Of a stretch of DNA of 64,000 bases, positions 12,371-49,796 are shown piece by piece. Made by a program: the position numbers and the translations under genes. How positions within the stretch are numbered: the stretch's first letter is position 1; each line of letters starts with the position of its first letter. Origin of the DNA: Antedon mediterranea (lineage: Eukaryota; Echinodermata; Crinoidea; Comatulida; Antedonidae); assembly GCF_964355755.1 (NCBI RefSeq), contig NC_092672.1, positions 13,574,501 to 13,638,500 of the forward strand, written 5' to 3'. The notes below the pieces were generated by a model that saw only the letters and a list, made by a program, of their open reading frames with translations, ran no database searches and was not told the DNA's origin.

Positions 12371-12582
12371 TTCCCAAAGCTTTTTCATTGATGTTGGTAG
12401 AGGAAACTGTCGTATTGCATCAACTTTATCAGCATGTCATTCCAGTCATGTCCATTTACTATTGTAGCATAAACTGTCATCAGTAATTGGAGGTCATTTT
12501 GTGTTCATTCCATTTGAAATAAGTGAAACAGAAAAGGGGTAAAGTGCCCCAATACATGCAGTTTTTGTATTTTAGTTTAAAC

Positions 12583-14203: not shown

Positions 14204-14207
14204 TGTG

Positions 14208-22350: not shown

Positions 22351-22739
22351 CCATTTAAGCAGTGTCCTAAATACAATTCCTGAAGACTATTCTGATAGGG
22401 GTACTTTTCTTTTCTCCCTCTTTCCAAAGGAGAAGTTTGGCCAGGTTGTGGAGAACAATATGATATTTCCTAATTAATATAATACAATTCCCACTGAGTG
22501 CTGTTTCAAAGATTTTTATTTTTAAAAGTGACTAAAACTATTCTTTACTGGTATAATATTGTCGGAACCTCCGGGTTCTCTCCCATTGATGGCCCAGCAA
22601 TTGGATGCTAGGCAAATTCCCCCCCCCTCCCCTCCCCTCCCCTCATCAGGAATTATTAAAGTAACATTAATAGCAAAATGTGTGAGTTTATAAGAACGTA
22701 AGAATCAAATAAAGAAAAAAAATTTAAAATAGTAAAATA

Positions 22740-23574
22740 GTTTGTATACCTTTTACACTGCTTTTATGCAAGATTTGCATGTGGCAAATCCATCCAATTG
22801 CTACTGTATTGCTTTTTGGCCCGCTTTTAATTCCTTCACCTTCATAAGAACAAACATAACACTTTGTTCTTGAATTCCATTTATTGTTTAAAGTTACTGG
22901 TGTGCCTATATGATTAATACTGTATAGTAGTGGTTTTGGTATACCCCATTATTACCATTTCAAAAATATCGTTCTATATGTTTTAGTTCACGGCAGCTGC
23001 TAGGATAAGGGTCGTCGCTCTGGAACAGCGCACCTTCTCTCTTTTTCTTTTTTCGCCAGCAAGCTTCTTGTTTTCTTGTTGAGCCTAAAATAAAATTTAC
23101 AATTTTATGCGAGTATTATTGTGTAGATAATCTTATAAATCTATCTATAATGATATGTGCCTTCTCGGGTAATGATGTATCAAAGATCGGAATTGACTGA
23201 GAAGGGTTTTAAACTAAATTTGAAACCCGCCCTGGGCATGGATAATAACACAGTTTCTTATTCCAATCAGATTAATTTTGCTTAAAATATACTAAGATGA
23301 CTCTGGTGTTCCTATGATTAATGCTGTTAGTAGGTGGTTGGTTTTGCTTATATATAGTCCAACCTTACACAAAATTACAGATTTTCAAATAAGAAGAATA
23401 TTATGAAAAAACAAACATTAAATTACCATTTCACAAATGTCGCTCTGTATTTTATATTATTCATGGCAGGTGGTGGTGATGGTGGCACGAGCGCCTTGTC
23501 CATCAATAATTATTTAATCAAAATTATTTAATCAAGCAGGATTCAATCCGTTTTGGAATAATTTGATGTATATA
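22740..23574 (-). pseudogene. 3' half of an older BEN-domain gene paralogue (exons 3-5)
   Basis: Read on the minus strand, this is homologous to 35397-36420 of the intact BEN gene, including introns. Relics of exon 3 are at about 23545-23475, exon 4 at about 23085-22970 and exon 5 at about 22850-22740. Exon 4 and exon 5 keep the splice signals and most residues but have in-frame stops (for example AQQENKKLAGEKRKRE is later interrupted, and QLDGFATCKSCIKAV is followed by a stop). It ends abruptly at 23574, the left edge of the CACTA-like element. The other half continues at 39693-40870 on the same strand. Confidence 0.85.
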
Positions 23575-23584
23575 CACTCCATAA

Positions 23585-24250
23585 AAAATGAGATCGGGAT
23601 CCCGATCGGGATGCGGTGGGATCCCACCGGGATGGCCCCATCCCGGTGGGATTTGACGATCCCACCGGGACGAACTCGGGATTTTTTTTCGCAATATCAG
23701 GATAAACGGGATTTTTGTTAAGAATTGCGGGATTTTGTACGCAATAACGGGATCGTGTTTGTAGACTACGGGATTTTGTAGGCAACATCGGGATTTTGTA
23801 CGCAAGATCGCGATTGGCGGGATTTTGTTTATAAAATTACAGGATTTTGTACGCAAGATCGGGATCGACAGGATTGTGTTTGTATAGACTACGGGATTTT
23901 GTACGCAAGATCGGGATTGGCGGGATTTTGTTTATAAAATTACGGGATTTTGTACGCAAGATCGGGATCGACAGGATTGTGTTTGTAGACTACGGGATTT
24001 TGTACGCAACATCGGGATTGGCGGGATTTTGTTTGTAAAAGTAAAGGATTTTGTACGCAAGATCGGGATTTTGTACACAACATCGCGATTGTCGGGATTT
24101 TGTTTGTAAAAGTACGGGATTTTTAACGCAAGATCGGGATTTTGTAGGCCTACGCAACATCGGGATTGGCGGGATTTTGTTTGTAAAAGTATGGGATCTT
24201 GTACGCCATAGCGGGATCTTGTTTATATAGGGGATTTTCTACAGTAAGAT
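23585..24250. repeat. Left subterminal repeat array (CGGGATTTTGT type)
   Basis: It opens with palindromic GGGATCCC blocks (23593-23660). Then come many copies of a roughly 25-30 base unit, GGGATTTTGTACGCAAGATC alternating with GGGATTGGCGGGATTTTG. The array directly abuts the left terminus of the CACTA-like element. Subterminal repeats of this kind are bound by accessory proteins in plant CACTA elements; a similar role here is inference. Confidence 0.85.
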
Positions 24251-24925
24251 CGGTTTGCTTTACTCTACTGTAAACTTTCCTATGTAAGTTTTAAAAAAAT
24301 GTCTTAATTATGCTATGTTATATAGTGTCTTTTTTATATTGTATCGGAGTTGTCAGTGGTTGTTTTTACATTAGTATCGCGAAAAAAATGTTTCTTTTAA
24401 TACGTAAAGGTACATTAATCGATAGGACTAGACATTTTAAAGAACTTTGAAGTATCTAATTGTTATAGATTTTGTTTCCCCTTGCTTTTAATACAAAAAT
24501 GGCGGGAACCATATAAATTGTGTCGTCATTAAAAAAAATGTACAAGTGATGCCGCGTCTTCGACGATAATTTAAGGTAAGAGACTTCATTCATTGTTCAT
24601 TCATTTTCTTGCCAAGCCATTACATTATTTTATTCATTTCATAACATTGTTGAGTTTTTTTGTTACATACTTTTTCTATTTTCAAAGTTGATATTGGTTT
24701 ATTTTAAACCTAATACTATTGATTACAAATGTTGAGTTGTTATTTGTTCAATATACGAGATGTTACGACCAATTAGTTTCAGTTGTTTTAATGAGATAAC
24801 CAAGTTGAGTTCTTTTAATAATAATATGTTGAGGGTATTACGCTATTGGTTTACCAGCTGATGAGTGCAATATGCACTCCTGCATAGACAATGCATGTTT
24901 CGTTTTATGCAGGAGATCCGATCAG
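24251..24925. other. Non-coding stretch inside the CACTA-like element
   Basis: No gene seen. Small palindromes occur near 24865-24915 (GAGTGCAATATGCACTC). Confidence 0.4.
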
Positions 24926-24934
24926 TAGCCACCT
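24926..24934. repeat. 9-bp target-site duplication, left copy
   Basis: TAGCCACCT here is repeated exactly at 26966-26974, flanking the inverted termini of the element between them. Confidence 0.85.
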
Positions 24935-26965
24935 GGGTAGTAACAAAGTGCGAGGCAGCGAGGCACGCGAGGCAGGGAAGGCATGCGAGGCAAGTCAGAA
25001 ATTTATGCGAGGCATCGTTTTACCATCATCAAAAAATGCGAGGCATCATTTTATCATTTCTCAAAATTGCAAGGCAGGAAATCACCGAAATTGAAGTAGC
25101 CTAGGCCTAGGCCCGCTAGGCTAGTTTCCTTTTGCACCTGCCTTGTAATTTAACCAAGGCTTTATCCTAAATACCACAGCTTAGAATTATTAGGCCTACT
25201 TTAATGAAGAAAAATCACATAAAAGTAACAATAAATCCATTAAATTGGTGATTTTACAGACGTTGTTTTTCTCGCATTTCGCACACTCAATGTTCAATAT
25301 TTTGGTTTCTATGGAACGCCAAAAGAGCAAAATTAATTAGAGGGCTAAAAACTCTGTGGAATCCATTTATATTTAACGCATTATTTGGTGAAAATCAAGT
25401 ACAATTTCAATAGATTTTGTCACTGTCAGTAAGGAAAAATGTTACTGTTGATAATGTACACGGTTTCGTTAACCTTTTAAAGAATAAAATAGAAAAATTC
25501 ATCATAATATCCTTAGTAGGATGTCCTAGGTCTAGACTAGGTAGTGATGTTGATTTAAGATCGATTATTATTCTTTGAAAACAGAACAGTATCAGCAGTA
25601 ACATATTACAACATTTTTATTGACAAATTAACAAATATATTGAAATAAAACGTGTTTTTCACCAATAAATGCATGAGAAATTGACGCATTCCACTGAGTT
25701 TTAGTCCTCTATTATCGTTGCTCTTTTGGCGCTCCATAGAAACAAAAATATTGAACATTGAATAAGTGAAATTCGCGAACAGTGTGCGAGAAACACGCCT
25801 GTAAAATCATTAATTTAAGGATTTATTTGTTACTTTTTATGTGATTCTTTCATTAAAGTACTCATGAGGTATACTTCTAAGGTGTGGTATTCACACGATA
25901 AAGTTAGTTATCAAATTTGGAGTAAAAATACAAGCGAAGGAAACTAGCGCCAGGTTTATTAGTACGTACATGGACAACAATAAATAAAAATCGTTCGTAA
26001 TATACCTAGCTTACTAAAACAGGAATAGTGTATCATTATTAAATATTACACCAATTATTATTTTATCAAAATTGATTAAATTATTTTCTACATAGGCCTC
26101 TTATCTAGGTTAGGGCTAAGCATATTAGCTAAAGTTTAATTTTAGGCCTAGTATTACAAGTCTTTTTTCACACGCGCTCCAGAATTCTGTCGCAATTTTT
26201 TTCTTTGCGGCATGTTATTGGATCGGCATATCAGTTACCTTTTATTCACCGCCAGTTATTGAACTTGTCCTGGCAATCGCTGTTCACCTTATTTGCGAGA
26301 GAGGTACACGTGTTGTTCCTAGAGAATGGAATGTCAAAAATGTCTTTGGCACGCCGCTCAGAGAGAAGTCTGTGCGTTGCTGCTGAAACCACGTGCTATA
26401 GGAGGGGAATGCACCACAATCCTCTGAGCTGAGGGCTGAATCATTCCGCTACCTGCTAAATAGTAAAGAGGGATTTTCCATCTCTCGGGTCTACCGGATC
26501 TAGGCGCAGGGGTGTGAAAAAATATTATTTTCACTCTGCTATGTTCGAGAGACATGTGAGTGAACACGCTCGAAATGCCAACAAACATTGCAGTAATTGA
26601 TGAGTGTGTCGCTATAACAATTATTGTTTATCGAAAGTTGAAGACTGTCGTTCAGATTTTTGAACCGTAGTTTGGGCACTTTTGTAAAAGTAAAATTTGA
26701 CACGATATGACTTGAATGAAAAAACAATCGTTACATAAAAATAAACAACATGATGAGTGTATACACGAATCTATTTAGATACGCTTGTATCGATTGATTA
26801 TTAGGCCTATAATATAGCACAATAGCACGTTAAGATATGCCTCGCACCTTTTTGAAATTGTAAACTATATGCCTCGCATGCCTCGCACTTTTGGAAATGA
26901 TAAAATGATGCCTCGCACAAATATTTGCCTCGCTTGCCTCGCTGCCTCGCACTTTGTCAACACTC
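24935..26965. mobile_element. Mutator-like non-autonomous foldback element, 2031 bp
   Basis: The termini are inverted repeats: left GGGTAGTAACAAAGTGCG and reverse-complemented right GAGTGTTGACAAAGTGCG. Both continue through GAGGCAGCGAGGCA into further GCGAGGCA motifs for about 150 bases. An exact 9-base duplication flanks it, the size made by Mutator-like transposases. A second, internal inverted repeat pairs about 25120-25430 with 25640-25955, so the element could fold into a long hairpin. I see no transposase frame, so it would need a helper in trans. It is nested in the CACTA-like element. Confidence 0.82.
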
Positions 26966-26974
26966 TAGCCACCT
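26966..26974. repeat. 9-bp target-site duplication, right copy
   Basis: TAGCCACCT, identical to 24926-24934. Confidence 0.85.
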
Positions 26975-28139
26975 CCCTAACTCTTAAGGATCGAAACAGC
27001 CATCACACCATCAGCGACCACTTATTACAGTCGTGTTTACCGTACAAATAACTCAGCTAAATAGTTCAGTTAAATATTCAATGAACTAAATGATTGTGTG
27101 TTTTTTCTTCTCTGAATTCAAAATTTTGCGATGGCTGTCCTGGGATATAATAATATATACCCACTTTTTGATCGTTTTTGTGTTTTTAAATAAATAACGA
27201 TAATAATGTATTAAAAATACAGTGTACAGTATTAACAGCTGCGTTTTAATAGCAAATCTTGGGACTAAAACAAATTAAATGAGAAATACCACGTTCGACT
27301 CAAGTTTATGATGATGATCGCCATCCTGCAAAAAAATCCGGACCCTGCACGACAAACTAGCAATTAATGCGTCACCTCGTTTGATCTTCTCCGTACACCA
27401 AATATGGGTCAACGTACGGAGAAGGGAATTCAGTTCATCACAATGTCACGTGGTCTAATTGCGATCCCTTTGTGTAAGCCGGCCGCGTCGCAAGGAAGCG
27501 CACATGAGAGCAGTGGTGTTATATTGTTCTATATTTAGAAACTCTGGGCTAGGAAATGTTAGCATGGGAAATTTCTACTAGCTAGAGACGTCGTCGTGGC
27601 AACATTATACGTACAAGAGTGTGCTGTTAACGGGATTTCTATTATAAACATCACAGAAACAGAATAAATTCAAAACCGTCCGGTTAATTAATTAATTTGA
27701 AACGATAACATGCGGAAATCTGTCAGTATATAAACACATCCGGCATAGAACATTAATTCTAAACCGCCCGGTGATATACTGAAATATAATTAATTTATTT
27801 GAAACGATAAAGATGAGGAAATCTGTCAGAATGACCAACCGAGACATACATATACAATTTAGAGAAAATTACATTCAATCAGTTTGTGTTTAGGCCTATA
27901 GGTTTAACTCAAACACCAACAAACAAACACCCTAAAAAATAATTTGTTAAACCTTTTTGTTTAATATGCCATTTTAATGTCACATTATAAAAGTTCACTT
28001 TTACCAAAAAACTGCATTGAAAATAAAAACATTATTTACCTGAAAAAAAATGTAATTTAAAGCAAAACATTCTTTTTGGTTAAAACCGTTTCTGCCTTTT
28101 TATAAGTGAAAACATTATTTTGGTGTTTTTTCTACATCT
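26975..28139. other. Non-coding stretch downstream of the transposase gene
   Basis: No gene seen. A degenerate direct repeat of about 80-90 bases (AACCGYCCGGT ... AATTTGAAACGATAA ... GAAATCTGTCAG) lies at 27670-27735 and 27760-27832. Confidence 0.5.
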
Positions 28140-31100
28140 TTAATCATGTTCGAGTAAGTTTCGTGGTACAGATATGTATGTTCTGTCTTGAATGTGAATG
28201 AAAACACAATGATGTTTTATATGTGAAAGAGGAATTAGAACTAGATCAGAAGGTGTTGCTATGTTGACATGATGCAACATTTGTTGCGTGTGTTTGTATT
28301 CTCGAATAAGGGCATAAGGAATTGTAGTTGTGGTTATGAAATTGATGATTTGGCCAGTTTTGTGCGGTCCTTCTGCATCCTCCCTGCTGTATACAATGCT
28401 GCTGTTGCTTCTTTTAGTGCTTTTTTCGTGGTGCAAGCAGGTAAAGATGCTGCGCCCTCTGCTGTACCTCCGAAATTGGCCAGTGTGTTGTATTGTGGCA
28501 ATTTTTCCTAGATGTTCATAGCCATCTGGTATTGGAAGCACAAGACTGGTTTCCCCCTCCATACATTGATTGTCATCTCTATAAAAAATAATAACACTAG
28601 TCTATTACATATATTATTAGCATTGGATTACGGATGTATTCAGTTTCTTATACGTCTGTAAAGGCTATTTTTCATTGGTAATTATTCATATTTCTTTCAG
28701 GGTATTGCAAAATGTATTATTTAAAAAAAATAGACTACTTACCGCAGGAATTTAGAAGTCAACCGCTTAAGCAACTTCTTCGTCTTTGGTGACACACTTT
28801 CGTCAATAATGTTGTTTACCAATGAAGGTAGGCCTTTAGCCATACCAACGGCAAATGAAATCTATATTGAATCATAACGTATAGTACTATGGTTAGCAAG
28901 GTTACGTACAGTTGGCAGTGCAAGTAGTTCATAAAACATATAAAACAAAAAGATAACTGTAAGAACAGTGCACACCATTACAGGATGACATTCATTTATT
29001 TAAAAACTTACTTGGCTGTTTACAAATCGTGATCCATGGACCATTCGCTTCAAAAAAGAATTCATAGACTCGAACCCAAAGCAAGAGTATTCGTATAATG
29101 GTCCATACATTCTACAGACATCTGTGAGATGTGTCAATAAGTGAATGTTCATGGTTTGTTTGGTTCGCCCTAGAAAACAAACGTAGGCATATTATATTAT
29201 TAGACGAAAAACCCCCAAAACAATAGGTACTAAAATAATAATAGGTAATAAAAGAATATAAAACATTCGACCCTCTACGGACCCAGGGAAGCCAGCAGCG
29301 CAACACACCAGAAGACGATCCCCTACTCTTTTTTAATAGTACTAAGTACTTAAACGTGCACTATAATTATGTACACAGGACTAACGGCTTTAGGTCCTAT
29401 CCGAAAGACGAGATAGGCCTACTTAATTTAAATTTAAAATTCATATAGGCCTACCGTATATATCAGGAAACAAACTGCAAAAGCGTTGAAGTGAGTTTTC
29501 AGCTTCCTCCAGGTCATGGTCAGTGATTTTTGATTTGGTTAGCCTAGCTATTCCATTTACCAGCAATGCATAATGTTTGAAGATGTCGTCAGGCATGACT
29601 TCATGTAATACGGGAATGGAGAAGTGGATCAACCATTCCCGATATTCAGATGCTTTAATAGAATGGTATGGTATGTGTTAAAACATTTAAAATACTTTTA
29701 TTAGAACAGTCCAGATGCCGTAGTTGTAGTAGTAGTAGTAGTAGTAGTCAATTTTGAGACACCTACACTTGAGACATCAAAAATCGCATATACTTTAATG
29801 TGGTTTATATTGGCTTAAAAAGGCACATACGTCACCACCTAAATGTTCCTATTGTGCCTAAACTAACCAAAAAAAATGTATACCGGTACCTTTCCAATGC
29901 TGACATTCATCCAGTCTTGATTGGCAGCGGGCAATAAAATTCGGTGGTTTAATGTTTAAATACCTTTGGTTGAGAAGAGCAATCTAAAAAGAAAATAAAA
30001 ATTATTTGCTGATTACAAGTGAAATTTTATACAGTACTTTTTTATGAAACAGGCTATCAATATAATATAATAATAATAATATATATAAATAAGAAAAATA
30101 CCTTTGTTTTTAAACTAAACCTTTCTCCTCTGGAATCCTTTCCAAACCAAAAGTTGAGTAATTGCTTGGTTACCCCTAATAACACACAATGCATCCAGTC
30201 TATGACGCACACTGTAGATAAGTCAATGCACCTTTAATGCCTCGAACCTTCAAATGATTAGAAACAAATCACATTGAATAATTAAATTATAATTACAGTA
30301 TTAGTTTACGTTCAACATGTTAAAGAGGACAATAAAAAAAAATGGTAACATTATGTGTACTATTACTGAAAATAACAGTAAATATATTCAAATGATGTAT
30401 TACAGCAATAAATCAAAATTTAATCTTACAGAACCACCACTTATGGCTGCCTCTCTCGCGTCACTAATCATTGATTGGTGTGTTCTTTTTGGCGTGTTTT
30501 CCTGAAAAGGATAAAACCTATGCAAGTGTGATGTTGGCAGTGTCTCCCCCTCTGCAAGGCAATAGTTGCAACCAAATTGTCCGTTATACTGTTTCATATT
30601 ACAAACCATGGCCTTAGCTGGAAGGTCCAATGTTGTTGCCAGTATACGTAAATGTACCTTTTTGACTCCGTACACTGTCAAAATGTTAACACCTAAATAA
30701 ATAAAAACAAAAATATGCTTATTTTTTGTCGCGTGCAAACACGACTCTATAGCTCACTATGTCGGTCGGTCGGTCGGAAACACTAACTCAAATTTGCGCA
30801 CGCCACTGCAGCCAAGTATGGCCTTGTTTTTATTGTAAACTTCAGAAGCTTGTTCACTATCGTTCGTAACATTAAAACAAATAATACATCATTGCTAATC
30901 AGTTGATTCGTATCAATTAATTCAATTTAATTCAATTTTATTTTTATTTATCTAATTATATGAAGGTTATTTCCGTTCCTTGATGTATCGACAGTTAGGC
31001 CTATAGGCCTATTCACCATAGACCTATACATACCTTCTTCATATTTATTTACATTCTGGATTAGCTTTTTTAGGTAACTCTGCATGTCTGGTTTCCCCTG

Positions 31101-31283
31101 GTTGCAAAATAAATTAGTTGGAATTATGTACTTCCGTGAAAATCTATAACAATAAACACGGATATCAAAATTCAGTGAATCCCAACAAAAATTAATATCC
31201 TGAAATATGTTTTAATTATGCTACGATTATAAAAAACGTGTATGTATTCAAAAAGATTCATAAAAGAAGGTAGCGTCATAAAC

Positions 31284-31314
<31 letters not shown>

Positions 31315-32877
31315 GTACATTAGTAGGCGCCTTAAGGGGAAAGTGTGTAAATGCTGACCTTAAGGGGAAAATAAGGAAAACAACCGTTTTAAACCAAAAT
31401 ATCAGCTAAATATATTCTTTTTGGCGTTTCATCATATATATTAATGATTCCAATTACGATACAAACTTTTTTTTTATTTTGTAGGTAAAATGGCAGATAT
31501 AACCCTTAATAATAATAATAATAATAATAGGCTTTTAGGCCTTTACCTAAGTTGTACCGGCAGCTCGTTGATTGCAACATACACTGGCCAAAGACTTTTG
31601 TCTGCTGATTTAAAAATGCTTACGCCATCTGATGAAAAATAAAAGATTTAATTTATAGGCTACATTGGAAATTTGCTAAAAGGCTAAAGGAAATCACCGC
31701 ACACAAATTAAATAACATTTTAAAACTGTTTGTACAAACCTGTATTCAGGGTGAATGTTACCATGATGTTTGCGTCGTTAGAAATTCGTTTGTATTCGGA
31801 ACCGTTGCAAATATCGGTAAGGCCTGCCTTGTTGATGTTTTTGTTCATGACAAAATCACAGAAAACTTTGTCTGTAATCAAAACAAAATTTCTCAGAAAG
31901 CATTGCAGTGAATGTCAGGATGTCTATATCTTATTAATTTGAATTTACACCAATTTTTGTTATTAAAGATAACATTATATCTTTCGCTTGATTAAGAAAA
32001 TGTACTGGTACTACGAATATTCCGTAATGAAAATATACCACAATTCGGTAGTAAACCATTGATTAAAACTAATAAAATCAATTCATTTACTTTCGGCCTT
32101 TTAATTTTGCACTATATTTATCTAGGCCTATGGACTATAATTAGGATATTAACAAAATATATAAAATCTGATAATTATACCTTTGAACATATCTTCCAGT
32201 TGTTTATCGAGGCTTAATGCATAGTACAACACAGATTTTCCACCACAAATACATCCAGTTGCCTCATCCAGATCTCTTAGGCAGAAGTCGCAGTAGTAGT
32301 GTTTCGCTGGATCTTTGTAGCCAGTTTCGTGCTTCATGATGTTTTTTATTTTATAAACCGAATTCACAACCTTGCATTGGTTTGGCAAAATAGAGGATAA
32401 CAACTGAATTAAATCGGCAAAAGCATTCTGTGTCAAATTATGTTTAATCACAAATAAAAGTACGCTAGTGTAATAACTGAGATAAGTATGGCACGAACCA
32501 GGAAATAAATTTTGAAGTAAAATATTGTTCTTGTCGTGTGCATCTATGTCTGAAGACAAACTTCCGCCACTGGCAGTGGTAGAATTAATTGAAAATAAAG
32601 AACTAAAACTACTAGCAGTAGAGGACTGCAAATCAACTTCATTATTAATATCTTCACTACTAACAATACTAAGACGCTCCGAGATCAGTGAACTGAGGCT
32701 CGACGATGACACGCTTAGATTTGGACTACAGGTACCTCCGGTAGGTCTAGTTTTGGGCCTCATCCGCCAAAAAGCATATCTCGCTCTTCTGGGATTAAAC
32801 CCGAAGTGCTTCGAGGAGCGTTTCCTCTTCTTTGGAGTGATGTCTTGAGGATCAGATAACGAACTTAAGTCCGACAT
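28140..32877 (-). CDS. TNP2/DUF4218-like transposase of a CACTA/EnSpm-type element, 11 exons, one lesion
   Basis: Eleven minus-strand exons with GT/AG borders: 32877-32181, 31871-31740, 31628-31547, 31143-31034, 30692-30430, 30247-30102, 29983-29890, 29652-29455, 29169-29012, 28861-28743, 28578-28140. About 812 codons. Exon 1 starts at an ATG, has a basic patch and a Ser-rich region, and ends with a Cys cluster (CDFCLRDLDEATGCICGG). Later motifs are typical of this family: DGVSIFKSADKSLWPVYVAI (exon 3), the PAKAMVCNMKQYNGQFGCNYC block (exon 5), DWMHCVLLGVTKQLLNFWF (exon 6), and a DUF4218-like NIHLLTHLTDVCRMYGPL with ESMNSFLKRMVHG (exon 9). All exon phases agree except within exon 6, where a short deletion and frameshift near 30200 gives a stop before the DWMHC block. 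TNP2 proteins cut the element ends. The lesion makes this copy probably inactive. Confidence 0.85.
29727..29749. repeat. (GTA)n microsatellite
   Basis: A run of GTA triplets in intron 7 of the transposase gene. Confidence 0.9.
30728..30777. repeat. Dispersed CGACTCTATAG ... (TCGG)n repeat
   Basis: GTCGCGTGCAAACACGAC can fold on itself and is followed by TCTATAGCTCACTATG and several TCGG units. A near copy is at 53024-53090, just before the plus-strand LINE. It lies in intron 4 of the transposase gene. Confidence 0.7.
31283..31315. repeat. (TAA)n microsatellite
   Basis: Uninterrupted TAA triplets within an intron of the transposase gene. A shorter one lies at 31506-31529. Confidence 0.9.
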
Positions 32878-33752
32878 TTTCTTGACTATATAGAAAAAGG
32901 GTAATAATAGATGTAAATTACACCAGCAAGTTACTATGATTTGTGTGTTCGGGGTTCAATTACATCTATTGCATTAAAACAACTGTGCCACTACCGGTAG
33001 TTACGTTACGACACTAAAAAATGTTAGCATTAAGGCCCATTTAATAGATAAAGGACGATAAATAGATAAATATGCGATTGTCTTACGTTTATCTTTTTAT
33101 CGTCGATCCATGGAGTTATACCTTCATGTCACCGGAGGTCAGGATCGACCATGGACGTGACCATGGTCGATCGTTATATAATAGATGCCCAGATTTAGGC
33201 ATAAGGGCATTGGTAGGAGGGTTGTTAGGATGGTCAATTAAGCCTAATTAATAAATAGGCCTAAATTGTACTGTATTGTACTTACAATAAAATTATAGCC
33301 GGTCCAGGAAATTCGTCTAATGTGATGTTACGTAATGTATTGGATGAAAAGATTTATTGTGAAAAAATACCAACTTGACCTCAATGATCAGTAAAGGGGC
33401 GGAGTACTACTAATAAATATTATTTGTTACAAAACCTTAAATTGCACGCGTGTACTGGGTGCGCCGCCCATAATACGCGCACATACCCGTTCATATTGTA
33501 TCATTTAGAGGCGATTTATCGTATGAATAAGTTAAAAGTAAGTTAGAGGCTTGAGTAGATTTTTTTTTCGAGTAAATTTGTTTGAAGTAGCCCTAATATC
33601 GCCAATTTAACATTAGTTTCAATGAAAAACATCGAAAAGAAGCGCCATCCGGGTATCTATTATTAATAATTATCATTCCATATTTTGATATTCCCGCTTC
33701 TCTCTCTCTCTCGGATCCAAACTGCCAACCACCGAATACCTTCAAGTTAATA
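32878..33752. promoter_or_regulatory. Intergenic region between two divergent genes, probable bidirectional promoter
   Basis: The start codons of the transposase (32877, minus) and the BEN gene (33753, plus) face away from each other across 875 bases. Any promoters for both must lie here or in unseen 5' exons. I see no clear TATA element. A TCTCTCTCTCTC run is at 33700-33712. Confidence 0.45.
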
Positions 33753-36700
33753 ATGTCTTCTTCAAATTCTATTGTTTTAATCATTTGGGTTAATGATAAT
33801 CCCATAACTGGGACCATATTTAATTCTAAATCCATAATTGAACCAAAGGATATAATACCCAAAGTGGGTAATTATGTCACAGTTAGGTTTCCGGGGTTTG
33901 GTAGGCAAAGAGGGATCGTTGGAAAAATCGGAGGTAAGATCTACTAGTAGTAGGTTATACTAATAGGCCTATATAGGCCTTGGCTAGGTCTAGTTAGCGA
34001 CCATTATATTATTTGGTTTGAGTAAATAGTTTTTAATTATGTTACAAAAAACAAGTAAAATAAGCTAGGCTTATCAGTATCATATTTAATCTGATCAAAC
34101 GTAGGTCTACTTATAACAGGCCTAATTTAGTAATAATATCTACAGGCCTATCATATTACTACTAGGCCTAGCTACCTATATTATTACAGTGCAGCTAATC
34201 CAGAGAGTACTAACCTAGTCTTATTATAGGCCAGCCTATTTCGTATTTAGGCATAGGCCTATACAGTTTCAGAATAATGCCGAATGCATTCCGCAGAAAA
34301 AAATTTCATTTTGTAATTTTGTTTAGCAATATTGCTAATCAAACTAATTTTTGAGTCAAGAAACTATGCTAGTTTTGTATTATATTTTTTGCTACACAAT
34401 TTTAGAAATGTGTAGCAATAAGGCAGGGAACATTTTCGCCAGTGTAGCGTAGCAAAAAGCTATACAAAACAACCTTATTGCTACACATTTTGAAAATTGT
34501 GTAGCAAAAAATACAATACAAAACTATGTTTCTCGACTTAAAAATCAGTTTTATTAGCAATATTTTTTATTTTTAAATGAAAATTTTCCCTGTAAGGTTG
34601 TTTTGTATAGCTTTTTGCTATTCTACACTGTACTGAGGAAATTATTCCCCGATTCCTGTACATCTCTGTAAATATAGGCCCTTGATATAAACAATGGTTT
34701 AAAAAACAATTAGGGCCTAGGTCTATAAATAAACCTAGGTAGGCCTAATCTATAACTAGGCCTATGCTAGGCTAGGCCTAGTCCTATTGTTAAGCTAGAT
34801 GTCTAGCTAAGCTACAACAACCTAAAGGCCTATTTACACTAGGCCTATAGATAGACCTATATAAAACAAAATAAATTATGCTGTCTTTGATAACAATAAT
34901 ATTCAAATCAAATGACGTCATGATAAATAAAAACAATAAAACCGTTGTATTGTCACGATATAATATTGTTTATATAGTATTACTAATCATGACATCATTT
35001 GATTGGACGTGTGAAAATATCATTTTCATCAAAGGAAACATAGGCCTATCTGGTTATTTTATAGTTGTTTTATGTATAAAAAATGCACATTTGTCTATTT
35101 ATGGTCGATCGTTATCGACCTAGTGTAAATAGGCTTTAACGACCATAAATTTCATTGCTTATGTTAATAATGTTTTTGCATTTGTTTGTTAGATGAGTCA
35201 ATGAGAAGTAGTTTTAAGGATATCCTTAAAGGAGACGAGTTCTTAACACTCGTTGACACCGTCTGTAAATCAAAAAAGGTAAAAAAAAAAATAATTGAGA
35301 CTGAAAGTGAGACTACATATGGGCTACATACGAAAGGTCGTATGTAGGTATTATTTTGATTAAAACTCAACTGCCGTAATTTATTACCATGTATTCATAT
35401 ACATCAAATTATTCCAAAAGGATAACGAAAGAGGATACGAAAAGATACATCGTTATTGAATTCTGCTTGATTAAATAATTATTGATGCAATATCTACACA
35501 ATATTCATATGTAATGTGTATAATTGATACTTATTATATAGGCTGAGCAAGGGAAAAAGAAGGAAAAGGCGCTCGTGCCTCCTCCGCCACCACCACCACC
35601 ACCTGCCGTCGTGAACAATAACATACGGAGCGACATATGTGAAATGGTAATTTAATGTTTGTTTTTTTCTTAATATTCTTTTTTGAAAATCTGCAATGTT
35701 GTGTAAGGTTGGACTATAATAAGCGGCTCGTAAACAAACCACCTACTAACAGCATTAATCATAGGCACACCAGAGTCATCTTAGTTTCTTATTCCAATCA
35801 AACTCGCTTAAAATATATTATTACCATTCCCAGTACCAGCCCAGGACGAGTTTCAAATTTAAAAAAACCTTCTCAGTACAATTCCGATCTTTGATACATC
35901 AATTACCCTAGAAGGCACATAACATTATAACTTCAGATAGATTTATGAGATTCTACACAATAATACTCACATATAATTATAAATTTTATTTTAGGCTCAA
36001 CAAGAAAAAAAGAAGCTGGCTGGAGTAAAAAGGCAGAGAGAAAAGGCGCGCTGCTCAGCAAATGGTACGACAACCCTTGGCCTCTTACCACCACCACCAG
36101 CAGCAGCAGCAGCAACATCCGCTGTATGGAAAGACATTTTCGAAATGGTAATAATGGGGTTTAAACAAAATTATTTTAATTTAAAAATGTTTAATTTTAT
36201 GAATTGATGGACTATGTGTCGTATACCAACCACTACTATACAGTATTAATCATATAGGCACACCAGTAACTGTTTGTTCTTGAATTCCATTTATTGTTTA
36301 AAGTAAAGTGTTATGTTTTTTGTTATGAAGGTAAAGGAATTACAAGCAGGCCAACAGTCAATAAAGCAACAACTGGATGGATTTGCTCAATGCAAATCCT
36401 GCATAAAAGCAGTGTATAAGGTAAAACTATTTTTAATTTGTTTTGTCATTTGAAAAAAATTAAGACTAATATGGAGTTATCATTTCAGTGAAGACCAATT
36501 TTGATACAAACATTATTATACGTCATGAAGTTGATTTTTTGCCCTCTCTATAAAATATTCTGATAGTGCCTATATAAATTATTATTATTATAGATTATAA
36601 ATTATGTAAATACATGACTTTGTTATGCAGCAATTGCGTTCTTTTATTAATGTCATTTTTATTGTTTATTTTATTATTACAGACCTTGAAACCACAGCCT

Positions 36701-38764
36701 GCTTCACTCGCCATCCCTCTCTCTTCTTTAGGCCTACTTTCCATTCCCCCCTCTGCTTCACTTCCCAGCCCCCCCTCTGCTTCACTTTCCAGCCCCACCT
36801 TTGCTTCAATTTCCAGCCCTCCCTCTGCCTCACTTTCCGACTCTTCCCCTCCTGCTTTATTTCCCAGCACAACTTTTGCCTCAAATTCTAGCTCCCCGTC
36901 TCTTCCACTTTTCACCTATCCTTCGACTCCTTCACGTGCCATCCCCTCTAAACGTTCTACACATCTTTCGCCATCGTCTTTCTCCGTCAGTCCTTCCGCC
37001 TCACCTTCCTCGCCACCACCAACAAACGTCGAAAATGGTACAGTATAATATTTGTTTAGTGTTTGTCTTAACTACATACTTTTACTTCTGTCTTCTGTAT
37101 TATAACTTATATATTTTAAGACTTTTGAATATGGTTTAATACGATAATATACAAGCTTAGAGTATACTCTATGTGTATGTGTGTGCACAAATGAATAACC
37201 AATTAACCGTTGAATTAATCTGTATAACCTTAATGAATTTCACTGATTTATCATTATATTGCAGCTTGTCAAGAAGATGAAGCCGACAGCAACGAGGATG
37301 GTATGATGATCTCTATTGTTATAACTATAGAGATAACTAATCAATTACAGTTATAAATACTAAAATGTGTACGATACGTCGTTTATGGATAATTAAAGTG
37401 TTTCTAATATTGTTTTTTTTTACGACGTTCAATAGAAATGATGTACATGGGCGATTCCAAATACGGGGTACGGGTCAGTAAAAGAAGGATGCAACAATGC
37501 CAGATGTTTGCAAATTCTTGTGACAAGTTAGCAAAAGCTTTACTGGAGCTACTTGTCACAAAAGAAGATTGTGACAAGCATCTAACGATATACGGGTTTG
37601 CGAAAGGGAAGAATGCGTTAGATGAAAATAAGAGGAAAGCGCTAAAAAGTAAGTGTACCTTAACTACATTGATATTGTTGTGTCGTTCTACTATAACGTG
37701 TGTTACTGAAAACGATTAGGCTTTTAGAACAATATTTTTAAGTACAGTAGTGGAAAATTTTTATAATTAATGCAGGTGCTGTTTTTGTTCCAATTATTAT
37801 TAATTAATTACTTAAAATTTCGGAATGTTGTAAGCCCATTCACATTTATAACTGTATACTCACACTTTAAGGCCAAATCATAAACATATTTTATTATGCT
37901 TTGACCTTGGTACGTATACTGTACGTGATTTATTTATTATGATTACTGGAGCCTAATTTTAATATTATATATACCGTGAATCATGATAACGATAATCGAT
38001 TTTAAAGCAGTCGCCTGTCAAACGCTTTCTTCTCAACATGAAATTCGTAGTGTGAAATGTGGCGAATCTTAAAAATTAGATTTTAAAAAACTGGAAATAA
38101 TCCCAGGACAGCCAAAACATCGTCTTTTTTGTTCGGGCTTTATAGACATGATTATGGTGATTTAATCTAAAGATATTTGATAAATTGTGATTAGCTGGAC
38201 ATGGACGATGTGTTGGCTGTTTCGATCCTCGATGTTATGGAGGCAACTATTGACATGGATCGCCTACATACAAAATATACAGGCATGCATAGTGCATTCA
38301 TCAGCTGGGAAATCAATAGCTTTGATACCTCAACAATAATTAATGTCAACGTTAAATTAAAAGAAAAAATGTGAAAAACAACAAACTCTAAAAACTTAAT
38401 AACATATTCTGTTAAAATACATTGTTCAACTATTAGAATGTAGAAACTGTTTGAAACACTTAAGATATTATAAATCAAATATAAAATGTACCGTTAAGGG
38501 TTAGTATAAAAAACGGATTAAAAAATCGTTAGTACATTAAAGTAAAGTTGAACTCAACATTTAATTTGAAAATGTATTATATTACCAGCATAATTCTGTT
38601 GAATTAAATTGATAATGATTCACTTTCTTTTATTTTCAGGTCATATTTTTAGCGTCTATCCTTGCAGTAACTTGGAAAAAAGGAATGAAGTTTGGGATAC
38701 GATTGTAAAGAAACTGAATGACAAAATAAGAGGGATAAGAAACAATAAATACAAGTCCTTTTAA
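33753..38764 (+). CDS. BEN-domain protein, 9 exons, intact 447-codon frame
   Basis: Exons with GT/AG borders and matching phases: 33753-33933, 35193-35278, 35542-35646, 35995-36147, 36331-36420, 36683-37037, 37265-37300, 37436-37648, 38640-38764. Together 1344 bases, ending in TAA, with AATAAA at about 38784. Exon 1 contains KVGNYVTVRFPGFGRQRGIV, which looks like a small SH3/Tudor-type fold (inference). Exons 3-5 are Lys/Glu-rich, coil-like, with Pro and Ala runs. Exon 6 is a 118-residue Ser/Pro-rich linker made of repeats. Exons 8-9 form a BEN domain: MFANSCDKLAKALLELLV, then GKNALDENKRKALK, then HIFSVYPCSN, VWDTIVKKLNDKIRGIR. BEN domains bind DNA or chromatin proteins. It is divergent to the transposase and inside the same element, so a role in binding the element's ends is plausible but unproven. 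Several dead paralogues surround it. Confidence 0.85.
34298..34626. repeat. Nested inverted repeats (foldback, MITE-like) in BEN intron 1
   Basis: An arm at about 34298-34405 pairs with about 34490-34592 (AATTTTTGAGTCAAGAAACT against its complement). A second pair joins about 34443-34485 with 34590-34626 (AGCAAAAAGCTATACAAAAC). TGCTACACA motifs recur. No coding frame and no clear target duplication. Confidence 0.7.
36717..36850 (+). repeat. Ser/Pro-coding tandem repeat within BEN exon 6
   Basis: Units like CTTCACTTTCCAGCCCC repeat every 27-36 bases, giving SLSSPxSAS-type peptide repeats. This is coding and probably length-variable. Confidence 0.75.
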
Positions 38765-38959
38765 CCAAAGAATGTTGTTAATTGAATAAAAATCAGAAAC
38801 GTAAATTTAGGTTAAAAGCCTACCTTTATTTTATTTATCTTACTGTCCGTCAGCTCCTTTTTGAAAACCAGTTTAGATTTCCGTTACTTTACAAGGAACT
38901 CTTTGTGGGTTAGGATCGGTATAACATTTTGAGATTTTTAGCTATGATGTTCGTTGAAA

Positions 38960-39690
38960 AATCAGGAACGTGACAGGATCCTCCGATTGGGATCTCGTTG
39001 TTTCGCGAAATTGGATACAAATTCCGAAACGATGAAAATCCCGATTCGGGATGGGTAATCGGGATTCCCAAAAGATTGGGACGTCGTCCGGGACCCAGAT
39101 ATTTTCGACCGAAATTCCCGACCAAAAATCCCGATTTTTCGTGAATCCCGATGAAAAATCCCGATACGGGATGGGTAATCGGGATTCCCAAAAGATCGGG
39201 ACGTCGTTCGGGATCCCGATATATTCGACCGAAATTCCCGACCAAAAATCCCGATTTTTCATGAATCCCGATGAAAATCCCGATACGGGATGGGTAATCG
39301 GGATTCCCAAAAGATCGGGACGTCGTCGAGATCCCGATATATTCGACCGAAATTCCCGACCAAAAATCCCGATTTTTCGTGAATCCCGATGAAAATCCCG
39401 ATACGTGATGGGTAATCGGGAAATCCCAAAAATCGGGACATCGTTCGAGATCCCGATATTTTCGACCGAAATTCCCGACCAAAAATCCCGATTTTTCGTG
39501 AATCCCGATAAAAATCCCGATACGGATGGGTAATCGGGATTCCCAAAAGATCGGGACGTCAATCGGGATCCCGATATTTTCGACCGAAATTCCCGACCAA
39601 AAATTTCGGTCGAAAATATCGGGATCACGGCGAGATCCCGGCGGGATCCCGACCGTTATATCGGCGGGATCCCGGATGTTTTTTCTATAG
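38960..39690. repeat. Right subterminal array: five tandem units of about 119 bp rich in CGGGAT
   Basis: Unit starts at ATGGGTAATC occur at 39051, 39171, 39290, 39408 and 39526, a period of 118-120. Each unit holds CGGGAT in both orientations, for example ATCCCGATTTTTC and GATCGGGACGTCG. The last 90 bases are GGCGGGATCCCG-type palindromes leading into the right terminus CTATAGG at 39686-39692. Apparent long open frames across it (minus 39695-38910) are a by-product of the repeats. Confidence 0.88.
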
Positions 39691-39692
39691 GG

Positions 39693-40870
39693 CATGATAA
39701 TAAATTAGGGCAGTTGAGTTTTATTCAAAATAGACCCTACATATGACTTATGGCCTTGGCCTCTAGCCTAGTCTCACTTTCAGTCTCAATTCTTCATTTT
39801 TGATTTACAGACATGGTCAACAAGTTTCATAAATTCAAAGTATTTCTCATTGACTCATCAAACTCCTTAAAAAACAAACGCAAACGCAAAAACATTATTA
39901 ATATAAGCAATGAAATTTATGGTCGTTAAGGCCCATTTACAATAGGACGATAACGATCGAACATAAATAGACAAATGTTCATTTTCATTTCATTCTAGAA
40001 ATATAGAATAAACATCTATGCTTCCTTTGATGAAAATGATATTTTCACACATCCAATCAAATGACGTCATGATTAGTAAGAGCAATAACATCGTGATTTT
40101 ATTGTTTTTATTTATCATGACGTTAATTGGATTGGAATTTAAAAAATATTATTTTTATCAAAGACAACATAAATGATTATCCTATAGTTCTAGAACGAAA
40201 CCCTTTGCGTCAGGGAGTTGAGTAGTTGGTCAGATGTTTTGCCCTACTCTGACGTAATTTGTACTTTATTATACTAAGTACATTTGAGAATACGAACAAA
40301 TTCGCAAGTAGTTCTCGTAGGACTAGCATAGTTGTAGGTTAGGCCTACCTAGGCTATAGTTGTTTTTTCATAATTACAGAGAATTACGGGAATTCATTCG
40401 GCATGAAACTGTATAAATACGAAATAGGCTAGCCTATAGTATACTGATAAGCCTAGCTTATTTTTATTGTCTTTTGTCACATAATTAAAAATTATTAATT
40501 ATTTACTCTTGTCGTTACTCAAACCAAATAATATAATGGTCGCTATCTAGGCCTCTATACTACCTCCAATTCTTCCTATAATGCGGCATCTCTTTCTTCC
40601 AAATACTGGAAATCTTACAGTGACATACTGTAATCCCCCACTTTGGGGATTATGTTCTTTTGCTCGATAATTGCTTTTGAATTAAAAATGGTCCCAGTAA
40701 TGGGATTATCGTTTATCCAAATAATTAAAACTATTGAAGAAGACATAATGAAACTTGAAAGTTGGTACTGTTCGGTCGGCAGTTGGGATCTGGGGGAGAG
40801 AGAGAGAAGTCCATGGGAATATCAAAAGATGGAACGAACTTACTTTTAACTTATTCATAAGCTAAATAAA
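39693..40870 (-). pseudogene. 5' half of the older BEN paralogue (exons 1-2), interrupted at intron 2
   Basis: On the minus strand this is homologous to 33500-35391 of the intact BEN gene. Exon 1 relics lie at about 40600-40770 and exon 2 relics at about 39810-39870, the latter with DESMR kept and then a stop. Homology to the intact gene begins at the base after the right terminus of the CACTA-like element. With 22740-23574 it makes one paralogue split by the 16-kb insertion. Confidence 0.85.
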
Positions 40871-41287
40871 ATTTAAAAAAATAAGTGGACATTATGAGTT
40901 AAATATAATGTTACAACCATCTTGCCCACATGTAATAATTGTAGAAAAAGTAGTTCCTTGAACTATATGATAACATTTCTGAAAACATGTAAATAAGGAA
41001 CTGTACAGTATACTGAAATTCAAAATACCTCGGTGGACTTGGATTTCATCTTCTTGCAGTCCTTCACGTAAAGGAAATGGCAAGAGAGCACTAAAATTGC
41101 TCTCCTTGTGTTTTCGTGGAGAGAATTTTGCTCCTGAAAAATTATATACAACATACTACAGTCATTTGGTTGGTACTTTGTTCTGCTTGCTCTAGAGGAG
41201 GTGTTTCTGTGACACCAAATTGGATACTTAAAAATGATTGACTGCGAAAAATTAACAAAGAATTTCATCCGGGGTCCTACTTCTTCA

Positions 41288-42846
41288 ACTTCATTTCTAT
41301 TTTAAAACAAAAGAAAATCATAGTGTAGTCATAAATCAATAATTTGTTTTAAATTGTTAGTTTGTTATCACTGGTTTTTTTTAGGTTGGATATTTCTGTA
41401 TTTATACTCTTTGCTGGAAAAATGTTCTAAAATTGTGTACATTAATTGAATTATACAGGGCTACAATACATTATTATTATTATGTTCATTTTACAACATA
41501 AGAGCAGCCTTTAATGATGGGTTTATAGTTATTTGTTTAATGCTTTCATTGTTATCGGTAGGACTTGAATTCGTTGCTTCGAGTTCCATACTCATCTTAG
41601 CATTGTACAGTATGCCCTTCTTGCATCCTCAAGACATCGCTTTTCCTTGTTTTTTTGTTTCTTTAAAATACGTACCTCTACATCAATGTTGCTCTCAGTA
41701 GCACCTGGTCTCTAAAAAAATATACAAACAAACTGGTCATTTAACATTTTTAGTCCTAAAAATTATGTTCAAACACATCAATTAATGTGATGTATTTTGT
41801 TTGCATCGGTTCTAAAGTTGGAATAAGGTTGAGTATCGTTTTATAGTGTAACAAAGAATAAATACAATTTTTGAAATACTCCATTATGCCATTTGCATTC
41901 AGTTGTATTGTGTTGGATCTAAAACACTTTAGATCCAGAATAAATAAAAAAACGCCAGGATCCTGATTCCGTCGGGATATGACCGGGATACGAGTGGGAT
42001 CCCGTTGGGATATGAGCGGGATCCCGACGGGATACGAGTGGGATCCCAGCAAGCCGCGCCGAATAAAAGTAGGCCTATGAAATCTGAACTATTTTAACTG
42101 TAACAATATGGCCTATATGGCCTTTTCCCCTTGATTAGTATTATTAGGCTTACCACTACTAGTAGGCATAGGTGGCATAGGCCTAGTCGTAGTAATAGGC
42201 CTACTATCCACCACCAACGGAAGAACATCGGAAACTAAATCCGAAAATGTTTGCCCCGACAGAATTGAAATGAATTCTTGTCGATCACAATCGTCTAATA
42301 TTAAAAAATAAAAAACATGGAATAAAAATAGGATAATGATTAAATTTGTTTTAAACTTTCTTTTAAAAATTAAAATATAAATACTAATTAATATAATAAA
42401 TAGTTCTAGACTGCATTGTTGAAATATTATTATGAATGGCATGCCTCTTTTCTCTCCCCTCCCCCCCCCCCCCCCAACACTCTCTTATCTGCTCAGCTGT
42501 CATGTGTCGTGTAGAATTGAGACGTACAACTAGCTATAGCCAACCTACTTCCAATGTTGCCAATAATGCCCTCTTGGCCCCCAAAACCTGGGCATCTTGC
42601 CTTTAATTTGTTACCTACAGTATAGGCTGTTTTTTCGGTTCTATAATAGCCGAAGATTTTAAAATGTTTCCCGTTATCGGAACATCTTTGTGCCATATCA
42701 TTAAAATCAGTTTTGACATTTCGGCGTTTGGTTGAATTTGTGGCAGCAAAAAAACAGTGTCAATCGATTAGGACAGTACTACGAATTGTTACGAGTCTAA
42801 ACAACGGTTATATATTTTTGTTGATTAGTAAAAAAAAAATCAAATC
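41288..42846 (-). repeat. Tandem unit A with dead BEN exons 1-2
   Basis: First of three head-to-tail copies. On the minus strand an exon-1 relic (about 42720-42520) resembles BEN exon 1: MIWHKDVPITGNI, IIEPKK, then after a one-base shift VGNK and CPGFGGQEGIIG. An exon-2 relic (about 42300-42115) reads DDCDRQEFISILSGQTFSDL. Intron 2 holds a CGGGAT-rich insert at 41945-42066. A further exon-like block at 41535-41725 encodes a Lys-rich helix. Broken frames mark it as a pseudogene. Confidence 0.75.
41945..42066. repeat. CGGGAT-rich insert in intron 2 of unit A
   Basis: Begins AAAAAAACGCCAGGATCCTG, comparable to the CACTA-like terminus AAAAAACATCCGGGATCC, and contains several GTGGGATCCCG blocks. 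It may be a short derivative of the same element family. Confidence 0.6.
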
Positions 42847-44446
42847 AACTACATTTCTATTTTAAAATAAAAGACAATCATAGTGTAGTCATAAATCAAT
42901 AATTTGTTTTAAATTGTTAGTTTGTTATCACTGGTTTTTAGGTTGGATATTTCTGTATTTATACTCTTTGCTGGAAAAATGTTCTAAAATTGTGTACATT
43001 AATTGAATTATACAGGGCTACAATACATTATTATTATTATGTTCATTTTACAATATAAGAGCAGCCTTTAATGATGGGTTTATAGTTATTTGTTTAATGC
43101 TTTCATTGTTATCGGTAGGACTTGAATTCGTTGCTTCGAGTTCCATACTCATCTTAGCATTGTACAGTATGCCCTTCTTGCATCCTCAAGACATCGCTTT
43201 TCCTTGTTTTTTTGTTTCTTTAAAATACGTACCTCTACATCAATGTTGCTCTCAGTAGCACCTGGTCTTTAAAAAAATATTCAAACAAACTGGTCATTTA
43301 ACATTTTTAGTCCTAAAAATTATGTTCGAACACATCAATTAATGTGATGTATTTTGTTTGCATCGGTTCTAAAGTTGGAATAAGGTTGAGTATCGTTTTA
43401 TAGTGTAACAAAGAATAAATACAATTTTTGAAATACTCCATTATGCCATTTGCATTCAGTTGTATTGTGTTGGATCTAAAACACTTTAGATCCAGAATAG
43501 CTTTATCCAGCTTACATTAAAAAAACGCCAGGATCCTGATTCCGTCGGGATATCACCGGGATACGAGTGGGATCCCGTTGGGATACGAGCGGGATCCCGT
43601 TGGGAGACGAGTGGGATCCCAGCAAGCCGCGCCGAATAAAAGTAGGCCTATATGAAATCTGAACTATTTTAACTGTAACAATATGGCCTATAGCTTACCT
43701 TTTCCCCTTGATTAGTATTATTAGGCTTACCACTACTAGTAGGCATAGGTGGAATAGGCATAGGCCTAGTAGTAGTTTTTTTTTTAGTAATAGGCCTACT
43801 ATCCACCACCAACGGAAGAACCTCGGAAACTAAATCCGAAAATGTTTGCCCCGACAGAATTGAAATGAATTCTTGTCGATCACAATCGTCTAATATTAAA
43901 AAATAAAAAACATGGAATAAAAATAGGATAATGATTAAATTTGTTTTAAACTTTTCTTTTAAAAATTAAAATATAAATACTAATTAATATAATAAATAGT
44001 TCTAGACTGCATTGTTGAAATATTATTATGAATGGCATGCCTCTTTTCTCTCCCCCACCCCCCCCCCCCCCAGACACTCTCTAATCTGCTCAGCTGTCAT
44101 GTGTCGTGTAGAATTGAGACGTACCTACTAGCTATAGCCAACCTACTTCCAATTTTGCCAATAATGCCCTCTTGGCCCCCAAAACCTGGGCATCTTGCCC
44201 TATACTTTGTTACCTACAGTATAGGCTGTTTTTTCGGTTCTATAATAGCCGAAGATTTTAAAATGTTTCCCGTTATCGGAACATCTTTGTGCCATATCAT
44301 TAAAATCAGTTTTGACATTTCGGCGTTTGGTTGAATTTGTGGCAGCAAAAAAACAGTGTCCATCGATTAGGACAGTACTACGAATTGTTACGAGTCTAAA
44401 CAACGGTTATATATTTTTGTTGATTAGTTTTAAAAAAATCAAATCA
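42847..44446 (-). repeat. Tandem unit B with dead BEN exons 1-2
   Basis: Nearly identical to unit A along about 1.55 kb, with the exon-1 relic at about 44400-44130, exon-2 relic at about 43890-43700 and the CGGGAT insert at 43515-43637. The exon-1 relic carries the same one-base shift as unit A plus a stop after VGNKV, so the lesion predates the duplication. Confidence 0.8.
43515..43637. repeat. CGGGAT-rich insert in intron 2 of unit B
   Basis: The same insert as 41945-42066, with extra bases before its left edge (CTTTATCCAGCTTACATT). Confidence 0.6.
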
Positions 44447-45112
44447 ACTACATTTCTATTTTAAAATAAAAAAAAAATCATAGTGTAGTCATAAATCAAT
44501 AATTTGTTTTAAATTGTTAGTTTGTTATCACTGGTTTTTAGGTTGAATATTTCTGTATTTATACTCTTTGCTAGAGAAATATTCTAAAATTGTGTAGTTG
44601 TAAATGTGTACATTAATTGAATTATACAGGGCTACAATACATTATTATTATTATGTTCATTTTACAATATAAGAGCAGCCTTTAATGATGGGTTTATAGT
44701 TATTTGTTTAATGATTTCATTGTTATCGGTAGGACTTGAATTCGTTGCTTCCAGTTCCATACTCATCTTAGCATTGTACAGTATGCCCTTCTTGCATCCT
44801 CAAGACATCGCTTTTCCTTGTTTTTTTGTTTCTTTAAAATACGTACCTCTTCATCAATGTTGCTCTCAGTAGCACCTGGTCTTTAAAAAAATATACAAAC
44901 AAACTGGTCATTTAACATTTTTAGTCCTAAAAATTATGTTCGAACACATCAATTAATGTGATGTATTTTGTTTGCATCGGTTCTAAAGTTGGAATATGGT
45001 TGAGTATCGTTTTATAGTGTAACAAAGAATAAATACAATTTTTGAAATACTGCATTATGCCATTTGCATTCAGTTGGATCGTGTTGGATCTAAAACACTT
45101 TATAAGATAATA
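44447..45112 (-). repeat. Tandem unit C, truncated
   Basis: Matches the first 650 bases of units A and B, then departs at ACACTTTATAAG, before the CGGGAT insert. It therefore lacks the exon 1-2 relics. Confidence 0.8.
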
Positions 45113-46121: not shown

Positions 46122-46225
46122 TCCAGTCAAGTCGCCCCATCGCAAAGTCGCCCCATACAAAGTCGCCCAATACAAAGTCGCCCCATCGCAAAGTCGCCCC
46201 AAAACAAAGTCGCCCAGGCACAGTC
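46122..46225. repeat. Left terminal array of CAAAGTCGCCC units
   Basis: About seven units of CRAAGTCGCCCMA type. The array is shorter than its inverted partner on the right and directly abuts the broken transposase frame. Confidence 0.9.
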
Positions 46226-49601: not shown

Positions 49602-49785
49602 TTTGGGCGACTTTGCGATAGGGCGACTTTGTGATGGGGCGACTTTGCGATGGGGCGACTTTGCGTTGGGGCGACTTTGCAATGGGGCGACTTTGCGATG
49701 GGGCGACTGTGTCGGGGCGACTTTGCGATGGGGCGACTGTGTAAGGGGCGACTTTGTATGGGGCGACTTTGCGATGGGGCGACTT
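49602..49785. repeat. Right terminal array of GGGGCGACTTTGCGAT units
   Basis: About eleven units of roughly 16-18 bases, the inverted counterpart of 46122-46225. Some open frames here are repeat artefacts. Confidence 0.9.
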
Positions 49786-49796
49786 GACTAGCATCC

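Follow-up and report, generated by a model that had tools for sequence, protein, structure and literature searches.

A BEN-like gene paired head to head with a tnp2-type transposase in transposons of the crinoid Antedon mediterranea

Does a transposon of the crinoid Antedon mediterranea encode, next to its transposase, the protein that recognises its own ends? The question is raised by a 64-kb stretch of DNA (C3:13574501-13638500 of the 354-Mb, 18-contig assembly; the whole stretch is called the window here), in which a 16.1-kb element holds two diverging genes, one for a tnp2-type transposase and one for a protein with a BEN-like domain. In plants, CACTA elements depend on two proteins, a transposase and a second one that binds subterminal repeats, and to our knowledge it is not settled which protein binds such repeats in their animal relatives. 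What we found is a two-gene transposon of the tnp2/CMC type (CMC for CACTA/Mirage/Chapaev) with a BEN-like partner, which is well supported and occurs in at least two delimited families in this one genome.

The element runs from 23577, where its left terminus (CTCCATA) begins, to 39692, where its right terminus (TATAGGG) closes, and is flanked by a target duplication of CA (23575-23576 and 39693-39694). Its two ends recur as same-orientation pairs at nine other places (C3:18.40 Mb, C9:13.56, C5:18.39, C11:16.50, C7:7.80, C3:17.41, C1:3.19-3.20, C5:18.92 and C4:23.77; repeat counts in the genome are lower bounds throughout). The left terminus is CCCCATA in the eight other copies that were read at both ends, and the family is characterized by short inverted ends, CCCCATA..TATAGGG, with CGGGAT-rich arrays inside both. 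The 2-bp flanks match in eight of the nine copies read at both ends, the window included (CA in the window, TA in C9, C3b and C5b, AA in C5a, AG in C11 and C7, AT in C3c); the match in C11 requires a fourth G at the right end, and the count leaves out the C4 copy and three copies represented by a single end each (C3d, C7b and C11b). The recurrent paired ends and the matching CA flanks bear out an earlier interpretation of this region, made from the letters alone (the sequence-only reading), as one element holding two head-to-head genes. Of the span that it gave, 23575-39692, the right limit stands and the left limit moves to 23577, positions 23575-23576 being the duplicated CA. The CACTA-like ends that it proposed were abandoned, as copies compared side by side have CCCC..GGG termini and a 2-bp duplication; a 3-bp duplication (CAC/CAT) was dropped as well, since these copies fit 2 bp only.

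The BEN gene lies on the plus strand (33753-38764) and consists of nine exons, with GT/AG junctions at all eight introns and a frame of 447 codons without a stop, which confirms that it is intact as claimed before. The domain is encoded in two parts on the same strand, one in exon 8 (37436-37648) and one in exon 9 (38640-38764). Pfam BEN is the commonest match among the aligned relatives (7 of 7, best E 1.8e-4), and in a comparison of the family profile with solved structures the BEN domains of BANP come out on top, weakly (E 0.065-0.1). The C-terminus may be called BEN-like, its match to Pfam BEN being weak and under the cutoff; the N-terminal part of the protein has no Pfam BEN match. A fold model of the exon-8 frame, in which intron letters were included, was unusable (mean predicted local distance difference test score 49.6).

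On the minus strand, across a gap between the start codons (32878-33752) that has a similar spacing in relatives and may be a two-way promoter, lies the transposase gene (28140-32877), with 11 exons and GT/AG junctions at all ten introns. It passes the Pfam cutoff for Transposase_21 (38 bits against 28.6, E 1.3e-9), is barely under that for DUF1258 (32.9 bits against 33.1, E 6.2e-8) and does not pass that for DUF4218 (15.5 bits against 27, E 0.016), so that of the proposed TNP2/DUF4218-like transposase the tnp2 type is retained and the DUF4218 match falls below its cutoff. The translated exons contain, as seen by eye, CNYC and HLLTH, i.e. C(2)C and H(3)H motifs. The single lesion reported earlier was found again as a change of frame in exon 6 (30102-30247), immediately ahead of DWMHC. 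In four relatives (C8x, C5x, C7x and C2x) exon 6 is longer and its frame continues into (I/V)DWMHC; because the exon is uninterrupted there, we attribute the break to a short deletion in the window copy, and a missed intron is excluded, as all four read through. The window transposase is not intact, so the window element does not qualify as autonomous. No match to transposase patterns was found in IMG/VR viral contigs, and the Transposase_21 profile, run over the whole genome, gave two matches, neither above the cutoff, being too insensitive for spliced genes.

To find relatives of the gene pair, the genome was searched with BEN and with each half of the transposase, and tblastn was then run on the retrieved stretches. 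Eight loci hold the transposase's N-terminal start (the window, C7x, C2x, C8x, C5x, C5y, C4z and L032), a count that takes transposases with exon 1, pieces without exon 1 having been compared to BEN matches by position only. At seven of the eight, BEN exons lie on the opposite strand and diverge from the transposase. The distance from start to start could be read at six loci (about 0.9 kb in the window, 0.9 in C2x, 1.2 in C8x, 1.1 in C5x, 2.1 in C5y and 1.1 in C4z), BEN exon 1 not having been recognised in C7x; C4z is considered disrupted because the later exons of both genes are 10-20 kb off. Compared to the window, transposase exon 1 is 35-43% identical, other longer blocks reach about 57% and some short blocks are higher, and the BEN blocks are 43-57% identical. 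The possibility that transposase copies elsewhere never have a BEN neighbour was thereby checked and it failed.

A second family is represented by C8x, a complete element of 14.1 kb (local 146-14235, C8:4998646-5012735) with termini CCCCACA..TGTGGGG, inverted ends that are 89% alike over 62 bp, 2-bp flanks AC/AC and CGGGAT arrays at both ends. Its inner inverted repeat (local positions 1695-2062 and 11998-12384, with arms 94% alike over 387 bp) has a sequence that is kept across families: in the window a left copy is found at 24796-24936 (plus strand) and a degenerate right copy at 38276-38335 (minus strand), within BEN intron 8. Genome-wide the inner repeat gave 41 matches, frequently paired in inverted orientation at a distance of about 2.8-3.2 kb. 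The left inner repeat of the window is split by a 2-kb insertion (around 24937-26966) with GCGAGGCA-rich inverted ends (97% over 32 bp) and continues, by eye, beyond it.

The CGGGAT-rich arrays lie at 23595-24222 on the left and at 39030-39674 on the right, the latter with 118-bp units to 39604 and more CGGGATCCCG units thereafter. Counted over both strands, CGGGAT occurs 83 times in the window (shuffles: mean 12.6, standard deviation 3.4), mostly within the two arrays, at 23595-24217 and 39038-39674, a smaller cluster (41973-43599) being outside the element. At seven of the nine loci showing the last BEN exon, at least five CGGGAT (both strands) are found within 1.2 kb downstream of it, beginning 137-405 bp past the matched exon; the exceptions are C4z, with one CGGGAT in the 971 bp available, and C3x, with none. 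The palindrome CGGGATCCCG is present at six of these nine loci. Arrays at both ends of the window element, in other copies and in C8x uphold the earlier placement of the arrays at element ends, and the suspicion that they might be an unrelated satellite was checked and is contradicted by their occurrence at element ends elsewhere.

We assign the element to the CMC clade as a tnp2-type transposon whose lineage is marked by CCCC..GGG ends and duplications of 2 bp. The Transposase_21 match and the subterminal repeat arrays are shared with canonical CACTA/EnSpm elements; CACTA termini and a 3-bp duplication are not found, and membership of that group is rejected on these two grounds. The resemblance to plant CACTA elements (maize Spm/En, soybean Tgmt*) lies in the tnp2-type transposase, the short inverted ends and the subterminal arrays, and, judging from the accessible part of PMC2613891, in a second element-encoded protein. 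In contrast to the CACTA ends and 3-bp duplication of the plant elements, we find CCCC..GGG and 2 bp, and instead of a TNPA/TNP1-type product the second gene here is separate, diverging and BEN-like. Chapaev elements have a 4-bp target duplication, compared to 2 bp here. C(2)C and H(3-4)H transposase motifs are among the features given for CMCT elements in the accessible part of PMC12730594; by that account the window element resembles CMC/CMCT in its C(2)C and H(3)H motifs and in a duplication inside the 2-5 bp range, and differs in ends that do not start with CA and in a BEN-like second gene. The second protein resembles BANP and other animal chromatin factors with BEN domains in its C-terminal part, and differs from BANP-type proteins in being transposon-encoded, under the Pfam cutoff and without such a match in its N-terminal part. 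Among open-licence papers in PMC, seen mostly at the level of titles, none visibly pairs a BEN domain with CACTA/EnSpm-type elements; in the accessible text of PMC5704228 the term is confined to the reference list, papers that name BEN domains together with DNA transposons do not pair the two in the text seen, and the accessible parts of PMC12062965 and PMC7642931 hold nothing on a BEN-transposon pairing.

How would such an element have worked? Probably it is a formerly autonomous CMC-clade transposon that encoded both its transposase and a BEN-like partner, which may have bound its ends. Because the pair recurs in distantly related elements, it is suggested that BEN-like proteins help such transposons to recognise their own ends. 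The element would once have been autonomous, its transposase in this copy now being broken. Both proteins of its machinery, a tnp2-type DDE transposase and a BEN-like protein on the other side of the 0.9-kb gap, are encoded within the element. The BEN protein may bind the CGGGATCCCG-type palindromes that are repeated close to either end, and might help to pair the ends or recruit the transposase; it might also repress the element, like TNPA for maize Spm/En. BEN domains reportedly bind palindromic sites, as is said of Drosophila insv, which makes putative binding of the arrays plausible. The BEN protein would thus be a TNPA-like binder of the CGGGAT arrays, with TNPA as precedent in plants for an element-encoded protein that binds end repeats (in the accessible part of PMC2613891).

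Among the copies with paired ends, those of about 5.5 kb would, in the same scheme, be non-autonomous relatives that were moved in trans. Six of the nine measure 5.5-5.6 kb, the C9 (11.2 kb) and C1 (9.5 kb) copies have extra insertions inside, and the C4 copy measures 2.1 kb. Compared to copy C3b they are about 92-99% alike along most of their length (86-97% for C4), and what they have in common with the window is the end regions and the inner repeat only, without the two genes. The insertion in the C9 copy (L001/L002, C9:13556500-13568200) contains open frames of its own that, by a motif, look like a putative PIF/Harbinger transposase.

Several observations count against a two-component transposon. 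The CACTA..TAGTG or CA..TG termini and the 3-bp duplication of CACTA/EnSpm elements are absent, the flanks of the C1 copy do not match (TT/AT), no BEN was found in the 7 kb read at L032, and at C4x the BEN gene lies on the same strand as the transposase pieces. The window protein scores 18.8 bits (E 0.002) with Pfam BEN and its domain alone 19.7 bits, under the cutoff of 23.2, and support from solved structures is no better than E 0.065. A Pfam BEN search of the genome listed 20 matches, 17 of them above the cutoff, and none is this gene or a close relative; because they are absent from the matches listed, we consider the window-type proteins to have divergent BEN-like domains. The ratio of non-synonymous to synonymous substitution rates (dN/dS) of the transposase is 0.79 between C8x and C5x (9 synonymous and 25 non-synonymous changes), so that constraint is not evident in this pair, and co-divergence of the two genes, compared over six loci for each BEN part, was not significant (Spearman 0.18 and 0.22).

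Of the other explanations, the one that survives best holds that BEN is a passenger or a regulator (for example a promoter repressor or an anti-silencing factor) and no end binder for transposition. BEN-domain proteins are known as chromatin repressors and the inner inverted repeat offers another conserved candidate target, which makes this possible; we consider it rather unlikely, given arrays of palindromic motifs that occur at both ends, adjoin BEN in seven of nine loci and parallel TNPA (as far as the accessible part of PMC2613891 shows). The two roles are compatible and not exclusive. A poorer account is that BEN belongs to an ordinary multi-copy host gene family, near which elements insert or which they occasionally capture, without a role in transposition. 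It can point to the element sitting within another BEN copy, to three BEN exon-1 copies in the right flank and to C3x and L035, where BEN was seen and no transposase detected, and is nevertheless improbable: order, orientation and close spacing are kept at seven of eight loci despite proteins that are about half-identical, two families, each delimited separately, have both genes between their ends, and copies with BEN only can be deletion derivatives, as at C4:13486834, where another left end of the C8 type lies 1.2 kb from a BEN match. Chance nesting of a transposase element and a BEN gene, invited by the several nested or duplicated pieces of this insertion-rich region, is extremely improbable and already contradicted by the recurrence of the pair at seven loci, whose families clearly differ, and by its presence within a second complete element.

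If the two-component reading is right and BEN is the binder, this would give a defined two-component system for animal tnp2-type elements, would account for the many copies of BEN-like genes in such genomes, as cargo of transposons, and would point to a source of host BEN transcription factors; with palindromic repeats adjoining the presumed binder, the question can be tested directly.

Possible partners were also seen next to more distant transposases. At C3:23.36 Mb a transposase piece that is 33% identical has a BEN-like exon about 2.6 kb off on the other strand, below the Pfam BEN cutoff (E 0.0011 when the exon is scored by itself and 0.5 in the genome search). An 800-aa transposase frame at C2:18.61 Mb has downstream of it, on the same strand, an exon that matches DUF4806 alone in Pfam, below the cutoff as well (E 0.037); in the accessible part of PMC11075544, DUF4806 is termed a BEN subtype, with reference to Pan et al. 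2023. The DUF4806 profile gave two matches over the whole genome, neither above the cutoff, no BEN/DUF4806-type partner was identified for the transposase at C4:23.79 Mb, and no BEN-like partner came to light at L034. We would treat the two arrangements as leads, not proof. That BEN-superfamily proteins are the standard second gene and end-binding factor of animal tnp2-type transposons across several lineages is a speculative generalisation that we think doubtful; if true, host BEN chromatin repressors would share an origin with transposon end-binding proteins. The transposase locus at C3:23.36 Mb has a repeat array of its own (L028 2184-2607) with CCAACTGG/CCAGTTGG palindromes, close to CCAATTGG, which we take to be the site of the insv BEN domain.

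The insertion site of the element was intron 2 of an older BEN copy on the minus strand, since the flanks of the element are two halves of that copy, the 5' part on the right (39695-40837) and the later part on the left (22734-23574). This interrupted copy is opposite in orientation to the BEN gene of the element (34870-35391 corresponds to 40178-39693 and 35559-36056 to 23504-23023), and the equivalent intron inside the element carries, by eye, the target site once. BEN exon-1 pieces, all on the minus strand, were found at 40565-40743, 42550-42716 and 44073-44315. The stretch 41285-45102 consists of a 1.6-kb unit present about three times in tandem, the copies being 95% alike and containing CGGGATACGAG repeats and BEN exon-1 pieces, and an inverted pair of GGGCGACTTTGCGATG arrays, 92% alike (46125-46215 and 49605-49789), possibly marks the ends of another element. 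A direct duplication of 1.1 kb, 96% alike (12993-14115 and 14206-15322), has a transposase exon-1 fragment nearby (12253-12363).

The BEN coding sequence is under purifying selection, with dN/dS values (NG86) of 0.20 for the window against C3x (190 codons), 0.23 against the interrupted flank copy (155 codons, its exon-9 block being doubtful; a separate comparison finds no exon 9 in that copy) and 0.14 for C8x against C5x (162 codons). Between the transposases of the window and L032, 30 of 108 codons are changed, 21 silently and nine not, including one stop. Co-divergence as seen in Mantel correlations (r 0.84 and 0.88, reached by 20 and 2 of 720 permutations) was set aside, as it depends on the close C8x/C5x pair. 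Compared to L027 (C3:12925501-12933500), the BEN exons of the window element differ at 45 of 190 third positions and introns 2-4 by about 7%, and between C8x and C5x silent sites of BEN differ at 16 of 103, against about 4% in introns; one idea for this excess of silent change would be selection to alter the exons, for example to escape small RNAs.

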